Below are positions 31,824-36,728 of a DNA stretch of 36,728 nucleotides, in pieces (positions within the stretch are counted from its first letter, which is position 1; each line of letters opens with the position of its first letter). This DNA comes from Pseudomonadota bacterium (GTDB taxonomy: Bacteria > Desulfobacterota > Syntrophorhabdia > Syntrophorhabdales > Syntrophorhabdaceae). The notes beneath the pieces were generated by a model, which saw nothing but the letters and a program-made list of their open reading frames with translations, was not told the origin of the DNA and did not search any database. The stretch spans positions 1 through 36,728 of the forward strand of contig JAPLKC010000087.1 of NCBI GenBank assembly GCA_026388255.1, given 5' to 3'. Made by a program: the position numbers and the translations under genes.

Positions 31824-32978
31824 TCACCGGCTGAGATCATCCATGTTCCGTTCCATCCTGTAGTAGAGGAGCAGGTCGACAAATTCCCTCGATTCTACAG
31901 GATTTCTATCCATATAAAAAAGATGTGAATTGCAGTTGCAGTCCGAAGAGCCGAAGCCCTTTACCTGATCTTGTGAAATCTTAGAGACCGACGCGGCGAT
32001 TTCGCATTCAAGACGGGAAGACGAGCGTATAGGAAGGGCATGGACAACAGTGGCACGCTCTCTCAGATAATCAATATGCCAGAAGAGATTTTTTCTTTTT
32101 CGCTTATGCCTTTCTATCCTTGCGGTAAGGTCTTTCATTGCTGAACCGATGTAAATATAAAAACCCTTTTTAAAAAAGATCATGCCGAGCTTTCCTATCG
32201 TAATTTCTTTATCAACATCAAGGTTGAGGATAAGTAAGTAGCTTCCGCAGTCCGCCCCTTCTTTTTCATAAATGTCCCATGGGATATCAAGCTCTGTTGC
32301 TTTATCTTCAACGGAAAGGTCATGTCCCCAGATAACGGATACGGCTTTTACGAATATATCATTACGTAGGATATAAAGGGTCTTTGAGAACTCAGGATCA
32401 ATATGGTATTCAGGCAGGAAATGTTTAACTGAAGAGGAATGAACGACAAACAGCACCCCTCCGTGGTAGGAAGAACCGGCAATATCTACAATGTGCCTCC
32501 GTCCTCTGTCTGTTACTGCATCAGGAAACATGGCCATATTTTTATGGAACAGTGTGCAGGATTTTACCTCAAGAAGCATTTTTTCGTTCCCTTTTCTGAG
32601 AAGAAAATCAAACCTGCTTCTGCCGACGGTAAATTCAGGCTTTTCTATTACATAGTCTTCAAGCCCCGGTATCCCCTGTTTTCCAATAAGCCACCCGACG
32701 ACGGTATTTGTGTGATGCGTGTGGAGAAAGACCGGTACACCGTCTTTATCAACTGCAATGACGGTATATTCTGTGCTCCTGTCTGAGATATGTGCTGTTT
32801 TGGTAATATAGAGGAGTTGATTTTTCTGTAAGAGTTCCCAGAGCCTGCCGGGGTTCGGGAGATATGCCGTGATTGCCCTGCCTTTATGGAAACATTCAAC
32901 CATAAACCTGTTAGGCCTTGCGATAAATTCGGCAGTTTCTATATGATTGAAAATGTTAAGTTTTGTAATCTTTCCCAT
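31824..32978 (-). CDS. sfsA: SfsA nuclease fused to a GIY-YIG-like DUF123 domain
   Basis: A 384-residue two-domain protein. Residues ~1-235 are SfsA: FIARPNRFMVEC, AYLPNPGRLWELL and the PD-(D/E)xK nuclease elements RSRFDFLL and LLEVKSCTLF. Residues ~250-375 match DUF123 (GIY-YIG-like): YLLILNLD, GFYIYIGSAMKDLTARIERH, HIDYLRERATV and GFGSSDCNCNSHLFY. SfsA is usually ~235 residues, so the tail is a true fusion in one reading frame. Both parts suggest nucleic-acid cleavage. It lies next to the decayed integron but is oriented with the ordinary chromosome genes. Confidence 0.88.
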   Translation of the reverse strand: MGKITKLNIFNHIETAEFIARPNRFMVECFHKGRAITAYLPNPGRLWELLQKNQLLYITKTAHISDRSTEYTVIAVDKDGVPVFLHTHHTNTVVGWLIGKQGIPGLEDYVIEKPEFTVGRSRFDFLLRKGNEKMLLEVKSCTLFHKNMAMFPDAVTDRGRRHIVDIAGSSYHGGVLFVVHSSSVKHFLPEYHIDPEFSKTLYILRNDIFVKAVSVIWGHDLSVEDKATELDIPWDIYEKEGADCGSYLLILNLDVDKEITIGKLGMIFFKKGFYIYIGSAMKDLTARIERHKRKRKNLFWHIDYLRERATVVHALPIRSSSRLECEIAASVSKISQDQVKGFGSSDCNCNSHLFYMDRNPVESREFVDLLLYYRMERNMDDLSR

Positions 32979-33014: not shown

Positions 33015-33173
33015 TTATGACTTCAACATGATATCAAGAGAACTCTTCAAGGCATTTGTCGTATCTCTTATGACATGGGTATAAATTATAGTCGTCTCAA
33101 CATTGTTATGGCCTAGAAGCTCCTGCCCCTCCCGTGAAATATCTTTCAAACTTTCTTGTGCCATAAACACCAT
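33015..33173 (-). pseudogene. C-terminal remnant of an integron-type tyrosine recombinase
   Basis: The reverse strand encodes a 52-codon open frame whose last ~40 residues are the end of a tyrosine recombinase: QELLGHNNVETTIIYTHVI contains the active-site His (LGH) and nucleophile Tyr (IYTHV). The following NALKSSLDIML resembles the GV-SPLD tail peculiar to integron integrases rather than XerC/XerD. Everything upstream (about 270 residues of a normal IntI) is missing. Its direction, away from the cassette-like genes, is that of intI in integrons. Recombinase origin is strong; IntI identity is moderate. Confidence 0.72.
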
Positions 33174-33317
33174 AAATTAAGATTTTGTTTTTGTTCTTTA
33201 TTATCACTAAAAGTGAATACCATGCAATAAAAAATAAAGAAATTATACATTTATTGGTTGTATTTCCTCAAACAATTCATGTAGTATTGAAATAAATACG
33301 ATAGTCGTATATTAAAT

Positions 33318-33324
33318 GTTAGCT
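33318..33324 (+). other. possible attI-type core site
   Basis: GTTAGCT is the only near-match to the GTTRRRY core between the integrase remnant and the first cassette gene; its sixth base (C) departs from the consensus. Position and strand fit the attI/cassette junction, but support is weak. Confidence 0.3.
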
Positions 33325-33349
33325 TATATCGAGCATCAGGAAGGATTGA

Positions 33350-34057
33350 ATGACCATCGAACGATTTGTAGAAAACGATAAAGCCTATCTGTCTTGGCGA
33401 AGTGCGCACCCTGGCGGCTTCGTGGCTAACGTTTCGGCACAGGGTCGCTCCTATGTCATGCTCCACAGAGTTTCACACAATCTTTCCAGTCGTGGCTCAA
33501 ACCATCCGAATTGTCACACCCACACATATATGAAGATGGCGAGCGAAGACCTCCCTTCCCTTGAAGCAGCGGTTGTTGCCGCAGGGTACTCACCACATGT
33601 CTTTCACGATTGTAAAATTTGCCGTCTTGGGACTGCAAGACGCTTCGAGCCAACCACTAATCTTCAATTGCTCAACGAGGCTACTTATGATCTCTTGGCA
33701 ACGGGCATCATGCCAGAGTATCCGGAAGGATATAGGAACCCCAAGGTGGCTCTACGCAAAACTAAGGAATACTATCGTTGCTCAAGGGTTAAGGCTTGGG
33801 TGCTATGGCAAGCGAGGTGGCAATGCGAAGGCTGCAAGGAAGGTGCTCCATTTACAGATTCGAGAGGTATGCCATATCTGGAAGCGCACCATATTATTAG
33901 CCTCTCGGCGGAGGGTCCGGACATTGTAGAAAATTGTGTCGCCTTGTGTCCCAATTGCCATAGGGAAGCGCATCTAGGTAGTAGAGCGTCGCAATTGATT
34001 CCCCTCTTGGAGGAAGCAATAAGGCAACGTGTGAAGGGAAGGAAATGGAAAAGCTAA
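33350..34057 (+). CDS. HNH endonuclease-type protein in an integron cassette
   Basis: A 235-residue protein with a C-terminal HNH domain (about 150-220): CEGCKEGAPF, LEAHHIISLSAEGPDIVENC and LCPNCHREAH give the two Cys pairs and the His-His/Asn/His core. The N-terminal ~110 residues have no family I recognise; they contain CHTHTY and CKIC, possibly a second metal site. The ATG has an AGGAAGG site 5 bases upstream. Its stop codon lies inside the left end of attC1, as is usual in cassettes. Its base composition is clearly richer in G+C than the next gene. It may be a defence or restriction nuclease. Confidence 0.8.
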   Translation: MTIERFVENDKAYLSWRSAHPGGFVANVSAQGRSYVMLHRVSHNLSSRGSNHPNCHTHTYMKMASEDLPSLEAAVVAAGYSPHVFHDCKICRLGTARRFEPTTNLQLLNEATYDLLATGIMPEYPEGYRNPKVALRKTKEYYRCSRVKAWVLWQARWQCEGCKEGAPFTDSRGMPYLEAHHIISLSAEGPDIVENCVALCPNCHREAHLGSRASQLIPLLEEAIRQRVKGRKWKS

Positions 34058-34108
34058 CAATCGCATCCACCGGACGGCTAAAGCCGCCGGTGATGCGTGT
34101 CGTTAGAT
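34052..34108 (+). repeat. attC-like site 1 (57 bp)
   Basis: Left core AGCTAAC (34052-34058), right core GTTAGAT (34102-34108), a match to GTTRRRY. Between them the arms GCATC-C-ACCGG-A-CGGCT and AGCCGCCGGTGATGC pair fully except for two single bases, C and A, on the left arm. On the folded bottom strand these are extrahelical G and T, the recognition feature of attC sites. Total length equals the shortest known attC sites. Confidence 0.75.
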
Positions 34109-34147
34109 GGACGCCTTCGGCGCATCAAAAGAAGATGGAGAGGTAAA

Positions 34148-34786
34148 ATGGATATTGCGATTCGAAATGAAACAGAAAAAGATTTTCACGAAGTTGAAGA
34201 ATTAACAAGGGAGGCTTTTTGGAATTTATATTTCCCGGGATGCAATGAGCATTATTTAGTTCACCAAATGAGGAATCATCCAGATTTTATAAAGGAGCTT
34301 GATTTTGTTGCAGAATACAACGGAAAAATAGTTGGAAACATAATGTATACAAAAGCATGGTTGATCAATGAAAATAGGCAAGAAAAAGAGATTATAAGCT
34401 TTGGCCCTCTCAGTGTTCTTCCAGAATATCAGCGCAAAGGCATTGGTAGCTCATTGATTAGCCATACAAAAGATATTGCTCTCACAAAGGGTATAAAGGG
34501 TATAGTGATATTAGGTGATCCGCACAATTATTGTAAACATGGTTTTAAAAGTGGCAAAGATCAAAATATTAGTGATATGAATGGGGAATACCCTTATGGA
34601 ATGCTCGCTCTTGAATTAGAAGAACGGGCATTTGAAGGACATAAATGGAAATTTAAATACAGTGATGCATTTAATATAAATGAAGAAGATACTGAGAGTT
34701 TTGATAAAAATTTTAAGAGAAAAGAAAAGGATTATAAATATTCGCAAGAAATTTTCTCAATTGCCTTTAGATCATATATCAAATAA
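34148..34786 (+). CDS. GNAT acetyltransferase in an integron cassette
   Basis: A 212-residue GNAT-family N-acetyltransferase. The family core is DFVAEYNGKIVGNIMYTK, FGPLSVLPEYQRKGIGSSLI (acetyl-CoA loop Q-x-x-G-I-G) and IVILGDPHNYCKHGF. The C-terminal 50 residues are charged and lysine-rich. The ATG at 34148 has GGAGAGG just upstream; a longer upstream frame would run back into attC1. Its AT-rich composition contrasts with the HNH gene before it. GNAT genes are common integron cargo. Substrate unknown; nothing indicates a specific antibiotic. Confidence 0.85.
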   Translation: MDIAIRNETEKDFHEVEELTREAFWNLYFPGCNEHYLVHQMRNHPDFIKELDFVAEYNGKIVGNIMYTKAWLINENRQEKEIISFGPLSVLPEYQRKGIGSSLISHTKDIALTKGIKGIVILGDPHNYCKHGFKSGKDQNISDMNGEYPYGMLALELEERAFEGHKWKFKYSDAFNINEEDTESFDKNFKRKEKDYKYSQEIFSIAFRSYIK

Positions 34787-34791
34787 CTTTC

Positions 34792-34848
34792 ATCTATCTC
34801 TTGCAACGGATCACAAAAAGCCGAGCCCGCTGAAGAGCGACGTTAGAC
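34792..34848 (+). repeat. attC-like site 2 (57 bp, degenerate)
   Basis: Right core GTTAGAC (34842-34848) fits GTTRRRY; left core ATCTATC (34792-34798) is one change from ATCTAAC. The arms CTCTT-G-CAACGGATC (34798-34812) and GAGCCCGCTGAAGAG (34823-34837) pair with one bulged G and a few wobbles or mismatches. Same span as attC site 1, at the end of the GNAT gene. Confidence 0.5.
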
Positions 34849-34926
34849 AGTATAGACAAGCATAATATTCAACTTAATTGTTATATACTATATGTTCATT
34901 ACTCGATTATTTGAAAGGAGATAAGA

Positions 34927-35262
34927 ATGGAATACATAAGAGTTGCAGCAACAGGCGAATTGCCTACAAACACGAGGACAATCGTTCTTATAAATGGTAA
35001 GGAAGTTCTTTTGGCGAATTTGGATGGTTCATACTATGCTATCGCCAACAAGTGTACTCATGCTGGAGGTTCACTGGCAGGAGGTGTTCTGAAAGGAGGC
35101 ATTATTACTTGTCCAAACCATGGAGCTCGATTCAACGTGATGACAGGAGAGGCTGTCGGGCAAATTAAGGTTGGGTTTAGAGAAATAAAGACTGAGAATG
35201 TTGAATGTTATACTGTCAAGGTTGAAGGAATAGATATTATGGTGGGAATACCAGAAGTGTAA
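34927..35262 (+). CDS. Rieske [2Fe-2S] ferredoxin-like protein
   Basis: A 111-residue stand-alone Rieske protein. The cluster ligands are visible as CTHAGG (Cys-x-His, about residues 40-45) and CPNHGARFN (Cys-x2-His, ~60-68). It resembles the small ferredoxin components of dioxygenase or nitrite-reductase type systems. An AAAGGAGATAAG site precedes the ATG. It starts 78 bases after attC site 2, so it may be a third cassette, but no convincing attC ends it. There is no oxygenase or reductase partner nearby. Confidence 0.9.
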   Translation: MEYIRVAATGELPTNTRTIVLINGKEVLLANLDGSYYAIANKCTHAGGSLAGGVLKGGIITCPNHGARFNVMTGEAVGQIKVGFREIKTENVECYTVKVEGIDIMVGIPEV

Positions 35263-35531
35263 ATATTGATAAAAGGTGTCTCAGGCATATATTGAGTACT
35301 TGCATTGTTTCCGGGGTCAGAGGTGTATGCATATAGACAAACGTTCCTTAAAAAAATTATCTTTAAAAATGGGGCTGAATTAATCCAGGAAAACCAAAAA
35401 AAGAACTTGTCCAACAAATATGTGCAGCCAAACGACCCGAGCCTCTGGCTGATTTTTATGTTGGAACCAAATGATGAAAAAATATCGATTTCATATCATG
35501 TCGTGCGATTACAAACACTGTGTCTATAGTG

Positions 35532-35554
35532 TTAACGCCAACAGTTGGCGTTAA
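35532..35554. repeat. 23-bp perfect dyad A (11-A-11)
   Basis: TTAACGCCAAC, a central A, then its exact reverse complement. The one-base centre makes an RNA hairpin unlikely and a dimeric protein site or vestigial recombination site more likely. It ends in GGCGTTAAAC, which contains a GTTRRRY match. Confidence 0.7.
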
Positions 35555-35608
35555 ACAGAAAATATCCATAAACCCAATACTGGCCTTGCTTTGGACTACA
35601 GAACCATT

Positions 35609-35631
35609 TTTGCATCCACAGTGGATGCAAA
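35609..35631. repeat. 23-bp perfect dyad B (11-A-11)
   Basis: TTTGCATCCAC, a central A, then its exact reverse complement. Same architecture as dyad A, 54 bases further on, with a different sequence but the same AC-A-GT centre. Confidence 0.7.
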
Positions 35632-35882
35632 TAATTAAGAGGACCATGATTCCTTCATGTTTTCCCTCTTACGACGGTTTGTATGGAATGAGGATGCACC
35701 TTCAACTAATTTGGTAAAGGAATTACAACTATATATCTTTATATTTTCTCCATGTCGAAAGGTTGTCGAGGTATTTCGGTGTTTTGTCTCCGGGAAAGTC
35801 CTTTTTAATTGTTTTATCACAAGTTGTCTGGTATTTTATCATGTTCAGCATTGACAGTTATATGTAGACAGGTTAAAAGCAA

Positions 35883-36290
35883 ATGATGAAGGAAAAATAC
35901 TTCCTCAATCTAAATGGTAGTTCCGAAGAAATATCACCATCAGGAGAGCATCGTCGAAGCATACGGTTTCCGGTGAGTCTCTCTGTTAAATATGGAGAAA
36001 AAACTCCCGTTGAATATACGAGTTTTATTATAAATATGAGCGAGAGAGGTGTTTTTATTCAAACCGAAAATCCTCTCCAGACAGGCGCCAAAATTGTAAT
36101 GTCCTTTTATATACCCCCGAATGTTAAGATTCTTGCTAACGTCGTTGGAAATGTACAATGGGTAAACAACGGTGATTCTAATCTTCCGAGAGGCATGGGG
36201 ATCAGTCTGGAAGTCTATAGCATAGAGTCAATACAACTACTTGAAGATTTCCTGGAAGAGCGAAAACATTTAGTCGATCTAAAAGGATAA
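35883..36290 (+). CDS. PilZ domain protein
   Basis: A 135-residue protein consisting of one PilZ domain, the receptor fold for cyclic di-GMP. The motif parts are RRSIRFPVSLSVKY (Arg pair, about residues 22-35) and NMSERGVFIQT (position of the D/N-x-S-x-x-G motif, ~56-66), followed by MSFYIPPNVK and GMGISLE. It resembles the stand-alone PilZ proteins common in Myxococcus-like and deltaproteobacterial genomes. A second ATG at 35886 is an equally possible start. No enzyme partner adjoins it. Confidence 0.85.
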   Translation: MMKEKYFLNLNGSSEEISPSGEHRRSIRFPVSLSVKYGEKTPVEYTSFIINMSERGVFIQTENPLQTGAKIVMSFYIPPNVKILANVVGNVQWVNNGDSNLPRGMGISLEVYSIESIQLLEDFLEERKHLVDLKG

Positions 36291-36433
36291 GCCGCTTAAA
36301 CATATCGCTAAGTTTTGTTTCCAATGAGCCGCCTCGCAGTTCTGTTGAGGGGCAGGGAAACAGAAGAGTCAGCCCTTGCATTTGAATATGTAATGGGAGA
36401 TAACGATATTTAACTTAATAATAACAATTAGTT

Positions 36434-36500
36434 GCTTAACAATTCGCTGGAGCCAATCGGCAACAAAAAACGTTGCCCCCGGCTCAATTCTGCGTTACCA
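36434..36500 (+). repeat. attC-like site 3 (67 bp)
   Basis: Left core GCTTAAC (36434-36440) fits RYYYAAC exactly and is followed by AATTCGCTGGAGCC, close to the left end of classical attC sites. Two nested stems pair: GAGCC (36450-36454) with GGCTC (36481-36485), and GGCAAC (36459-36464) with GTTGCC (36472-36477). The right core GTTACCA (36494-36500) deviates from GTTRRRY, so the site may be inactive. Confidence 0.6.
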
Positions 36501-36524
36501 CCCAGAATGAATGTGCAATCTTTA

Positions 36525-36579
36525 GTTGCATTATGTTGCATTATGCTATTCTGAGAGATACAATTATAGCATGTTGCAA
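36525..36579. promoter_or_regulatory. probable antitoxin operator
   Basis: GTTGCATTAT occurs twice in tandem (36525-36544). The second copy extends to TTGCATTATGCTAT (36536-36549), which is inverted at 36566-36579 with 12 of 14 bases matching. Position just upstream of the antitoxin gene suggests autoregulation. Confidence 0.55.
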
Positions 36580-36602
36580 TAAAGATGTTCGGAGGAACGA
36601 TT

Positions 36603-36728
36603 ATGGCTACAGCAGTAAGAATATCAGAAAGACTTGTAGATGAAGCAAAGAGATTTGGACGAATTGACCATAGGTCTTTAGCCGGGCAGATTGAGCACTG
36701 GGCACAAATGGGCAAATGTGTCGAAGAG
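36603..36728 (+). CDS. ParD-like antitoxin (partial, runs off the window)
   Basis: The first 42 codons of a gene with a perfect GGAGG site 6 bases before the ATG. The product begins MATAVRISERLVDEAKRFG and continues RSLAGQIEHWAQMGK, matching the ParD-like antitoxin family, ribbon-helix-helix-type proteins that bind their own operator and neutralise a toxin. The toxin gene, if present, lies beyond the window. It follows attC-like site 3, so it may be a toxin-antitoxin cassette. Confidence 0.8.
   Translation, partial: MATAVRISERLVDEAKRFGRIDHRSLAGQIEHWAQMGKCVEE

Follow-up and report, generated by a model that had tools for sequence, protein, structure and literature searches.

An attC site at the end of an McrA-like HNH nuclease gene in a decayed chromosomal integron of the Syntrophorhabdaceae

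A short imperfect palindrome overlaps the 3' end of an HNH endonuclease gene at positions 34052-34108 of the window, the whole 36,728-nucleotide stretch of DNA analysed here. Is this element the recombination site of a gene cassette, and if so, to what kind of integron does it belong? A sequence-only reading had proposed an attC site. That proposal did not include the remnant of an integrase, the additional cassettes or the decayed state of the locus. Our work indicates that the element, here called attC1, is almost certainly the attC site of a 784-bp cassette with an McrA-like HNH nuclease gene, and that this cassette is the first in the array of a decayed sedentary chromosomal integron.

A hairpin with the features of attC sites

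34052-34108, plus strand: attC1, with R'' at 34052-34058, R' at 34102-34108 and the loop at 34079-34082
34067/34068 (C, bottom-strand G) and 34074 (A, bottom-strand T), left arm (R''-L''): bulged bases of attC1

The sequence AGCTAACAATCGCATCCACCGGACGGCTAAAGCCGCCGGTGATGCGTGTCGTTAGAT occupies exactly these coordinates and is bounded by the outer cores AGCTAAC (left) and GTTAGAT (right). The stem has 15 pairs in blocks of five, six and four (CGCAT, CACCGG and CGGC with their partners), separated by two one-base bulges on the left arm; sequence, coordinates and fold all agree with the 57-bp element of 15 paired positions that had been described. The right core fits GTTRRRY fully, whereas the left core fits RYYYAAC at six of seven positions, the mismatch being the G at position 2. 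Published attC sites span 57-141 bp (PMC3053210), so that calling the length minimal was fair, even if it is not extreme in this genome, where another attC-like site has 56 bp. The stop codon of the HNH gene (TAA, 34055-34057) lies inside the R'' core, as had been noted.

When the two strands were folded separately as DNA, the bottom strand was slightly more stable than the top strand (-19.7 vs -18.3 kcal/mol; z = -6.0 vs -5.7), so that the objection of equal stability is not upheld. The five inner R-box pairs likewise form with a probability of 0.92-0.96 on the bottom strand vs 0.79-0.86 on the top strand. The bulged bottom-strand bases had been named as G and T, and the ensemble probabilities bear this out: the T opposite 34074 is unpaired with p = 0.99, and the G bulge is shared by two adjacent G opposite 34067/34068 (p about 0.5 each). 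Because either G can bulge, the spacing is T-N6-G or T-N5-G. On the R''-L'' arm of published attC sites there are two or three extrahelical bases; a G in L'' is conserved, a T lies at a distance of 6-8 nt, and the extrahelical G directs the choice of strand (PMC2727003). Sites with T-N6-G were excised best by the tested integrases (PMC3053210). In attC1, the bulged bases fit this pattern by the arm on which they lie and by their identity, and the proposed strand-selection feature thus stands. Given the small stability gap of 1.4 kcal/mol, strand choice at attC1 would rest on these two properties (PMC2727003). Moreover, the bottom-strand base that follows the AAC of R' is a G, as is conserved in the attC literature (PMC2727003, PMC3053210).

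The attC sites of class 1 cassettes (aadA / ant(3'')-Ia, ereA2, oxa2) share with attC1 the GTTRRRY right core with a near-complementary left core, the extrahelical bottom-strand G and T on the R''-L'' arm, the unpaired spacer, the small loop and the short size (PMC2727003, PMC3053210). In contrast to them, attC1 has its own stem sequence, a left core one base off RYYYAAC and a four-base TTTA loop.

The HNH cassette and its edges

33318-33324, plus strand: core GTTAGCT, the left edge of cassette 1 with crossover G|TT; exact reverse complement of AGCTAAC at 34052-34058
33319-34102, plus strand: gene cassette 1, 784 bp, its edges being the two core crossovers
33350-34057, plus strand: gene for an HNH endonuclease of 235 aa; McrA-like / type IV restriction enzyme in the C-terminal half

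A cassette extends from the last six bases of one core through the G of the next, and its own left edge should therefore complement its own R'' core. Here the left edge GTTAGCT is complementary to R'' at seven of seven positions and the right core GTTAGAT at six of seven, the last six bases of the latter belonging to cassette 2. The complete complementarity of left edge and R'' therefore defines cassette 1 as 33319-34102.

The C-terminal half of the encoded protein matches the mREase_IV model of PADLOC (2.4e-29), and the Pfam HNH domain was detected as well (6.5e-11). The protein has this C-terminal HNH domain in common with McrA-type (type IV) HNH restriction enzymes but differs from them in the N-terminal ~90 residues, which had no match in the libraries used. 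A role of the gene in defence by restriction is thus likely, as judged from these domain matches. An IscB-like assignment was also considered: the NCBIfam score (4e-7) is far under the cut-off, and the McrA-like assignment by PADLOC is preferred. Matches to the protein were found in 5 of the 60 genomes searched, its own included. In Vibrio atypicus (locus L030, 1431-1556), a VCR-like attC site overlaps the stop codon of the relative, so that members of this HNH family are carried as cassettes in other genomes as well; at most loci of HNH relatives in the named genomes, the scan found no attC adjoining the gene.

The downstream array and its counterparts in a same-genus genome

For a census of attC sites, 12 attC-like sites from this genome served to build the covariance model R1, which was applied at E <= 1e-3. 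Downstream of attC1, the array continues with GNAT, Rieske, PilZ and ParD-like genes, with one degraded and two standard attC sites between them:

34103-34842, plus strand: gene cassette 2, with a GNAT acetyltransferase gene at 34148-34786 (Pfam Acetyltransf_1, 1.2e-10)
34792-34848, plus strand: degraded attC2, with R'' ATCTATC (expected ATCTAAC) and R' GTTAGAC; no stable hairpin (-5.3 kcal/mol)
34843-35460, plus strand: gene cassette 3, with a Rieske ferredoxin gene at 34927-35262
35409-35466, plus strand: attC of cassette 3 (model R1, E 5.5e-7)
35461-36494, plus strand: presumed cassette 4, with a PilZ-domain gene at 35883-36290
36434-36500, plus strand: attC of cassette 4, of the dominant type of the genome and a training member of R1
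36495-36728, plus strand: cassette 5, truncated where the contig ends; a ParD-like antitoxin gene starts at 36603 (Pfam ParD_like, 1.4e-11)

The non-coding stretch 35460-35595, 3' of the Rieske attC, contains a perfect palindrome (35529-35557) and is repeated some ten times in this genome and in G001, a genome of the same genus, often directly behind an attC site.

Parts of the window align to separate loci in G001, and the homology breaks at G|TT core crossovers (33318, 34842 and 36494). The match of the region upstream of cassette 1 (33150-33320, 86%) ends at the first core GTT, and a different first cassette follows in G001. The homology of the Rieske cassette begins exactly at 34842, the G of GTTAGAC, and that of the ParD cassette (92%) begins at 36493 (CGTTACC). 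Integrase-driven exchange of cassettes predicts breaks of this kind at core crossovers; three independent ones are hard to explain otherwise. The GNAT gene has a homolog in G001 with 78% DNA identity that ends in an intact attC site with R'' ATCTAAC, the very sequence predicted for the degraded attC2. The GNAT cassette is common to both genomes through the first R'' bases ATCTA; beyond these, a degraded, unrelated attC body is present here (34792-34848) vs an intact one in G001 (C25 9322-9390). The HNH cassette itself had no match in G001.

Structure, position, the complementarity of the cassette edges and the homology breaks at core crossovers relative to the same-genus genome thus support the attC reading that had been put forward.

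An integrase remnant upstream of the array

33027-33149, minus strand: intI remnant, the C-terminal ~38 residues with the catalytic-Tyr motif (ELLGHNNVETTIIYTHV), TIGR02249
33150-33318, no strand assigned: presumed attI-side leader, with no hairpin at its end; 86% conserved in the same-genus genome

A complete integron has an intact intI beside attI and cassettes, whereas the locus in the window has retained a remnant of 38 residues at 33030-33146. Its translation, ELLGHNNVETTIIYTHVIRDTTNALKSSLD, matches TIGR02249 with 6e-7 in the genome search and 1.5e-8 as a fragment, and its DNA is 78% identical to the 3' end of the intI gene on contig C45. The N-terminal side, of which about 276 residues are missing, is directed toward the cassettes, and this is the usual divergent layout. 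On the other side of the remnant, the region 31824-32978 encodes SfsA fused to a DUF123 domain; it is syntenic at 81% in G001 (C58), where it is free of integron pieces.

Two decayed integrase lineages and many attC sites

Model R1 detected about 45 attC sites in the genome and 41, 33 and 22 in three relatives. Among 26 attC-type sites examined elsewhere in the genome, 23 follow a gene on the same strand, often within ten bases of its end. The exact attC1 hairpin is present as a single copy; a scatter of the hairpin outside gene ends, which would have spoken against the attC reading, is thus not seen. The covariance model of the dominant type did not match attC1. Since attC1 is not of this type, the HNH cassette probably arrived from another integron pool, as far as the site sequences tell.

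No intact intI gene was found in this genome; all integron integrases found are broken. C94, C126, C86 and C87 carry fragments, and the copies on C45 and C53 have frameshifts, which in a draft assembly could also be sequencing errors. Intact IntI does occur in the family (genomes G010 and G016). Broken and multiple copies of intI are common in integron-bearing genomes (PMC2426708). One C-terminal sequence type is common to the intI sequences of C45 and C87, which are divergent from their attC sites; those of C53, C94 and C126 belong to another type, are co-oriented with the attC sites and point toward them. Such co-orientation of intI and cassettes has been reported for Treponema integrons (PMC3607928), which the C53, C94 and C126 remnants resemble in this respect; unlike these, the remnant in the window and that of C45 have the usual divergent arrangement.

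The locus in the window has attC sites at 34052, 35409 and 36434 and the degraded site at 34792 without an intact integrase, and the breaks relative to G001 mark its cassette edges. It thus resembles the sedentary chromosomal integrons and CALIN elements (IntegronFinder terms, PMC9024848) in its same-strand cassettes, its mostly uniform attC type and its intI remnant. In contrast to the usual case, two integrase lineages of opposite gene orientation have decayed in this genome. It is quite conceivable, if a little short of probable, that this genome and its family hold two integron platforms, one with a divergent and one with a co-oriented intI, that share one attC type; both integrases would be dead here, while about 45 attC sites and their cassettes persist, among them cassettes such as that of the McrA-like nuclease with a fully competent attC site.

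Alternative explanations

Could the hairpin be something other than an attC site? Its position at the 3' end of the HNH gene and its strong fold on both strands would also suit an intrinsic transcription terminator or another RNA structure. However, no T-run follows the stem (GGACGCC follows 34108), and a search of Rfam at a permissive threshold returned nothing relevant and no match to attC1. Moreover, a terminator predicts neither the match of the core to the left cassette edge nor the intI remnant nor homology breaks exact to the core, and we regard this explanation as highly improbable. Still less credence is due to a chance or REP/MITE-like palindrome without any tie to an integron: palindromes are common, and the two strands of attC1 are similar in stability, but none of 200 shuffles folded as well as the attC1 hairpin. 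In a scan for attC-like core pairs combined with bottom-strand folding, attC1 was the sole match in the window (-0.35 kcal/mol per nt), and none of 300 dinucleotide shuffles of the whole window reached even -0.25 kcal/mol per nt. Furthermore, no exact copy of the hairpin exists elsewhere in the 3.8-Mb genome, and the cassette edges, the flanking attC sites and the crossover-exact cassette differences to G001 all fit an integron. A plasmid collection held no match to attC1, and an inverted-repeat finder did not pick up the hairpin because of its bulges.

More weight has to be given to the idea that attC1 is a fossil, i. e. a former attC site that is now as non-functional as attC2, since every intI copy found in the genome is broken and attC2 is degraded. 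Against this, attC1 has kept its paired R boxes, both extrahelical bases in the favoured spacing, the conserved G after the AAC of the bottom strand and a strong fold. We therefore consider a fossil site unlikely, and attC1 is likely to be competent for recombination, as far as its predicted structure allows this conclusion.

Proposed recombination at attC1 and the fate of the integron

If attC1 behaves as established integron biology suggests, the bottom strand of 34052-34108, once single-stranded, would form the hairpin, and an integron integrase would recognise it via the two extrahelical bases (T and G). The cut would fall between the A and the C of the AAC in the R' box, i. e. after G 34102 in top-strand terms, and joining of the cut site to attI or to another attC site would insert or excise the cassette. 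With no intact integrase found in the genome, the HNH cassette probably no longer moves, except through an integrase acting in trans.

Taken by itself, attC1 is an ordinary, well-formed attC site, and a cassette in a degraded sedentary integron is of a known kind. As this case confirms, raw sequence allows a correct reading of attC sites through their strand-asymmetric hairpin. The case is also a clean one, as the inferred cassette edges were verified at nucleotide resolution by a same-genus genome. Most unusual is the context, as a divergent and a co-oriented integrase lineage have both decayed in one genome. This genome, in which many attC sites remain, several integrases are broken and a likely gene for defence by restriction has been retained as a cassette, is a useful test case of integron death.
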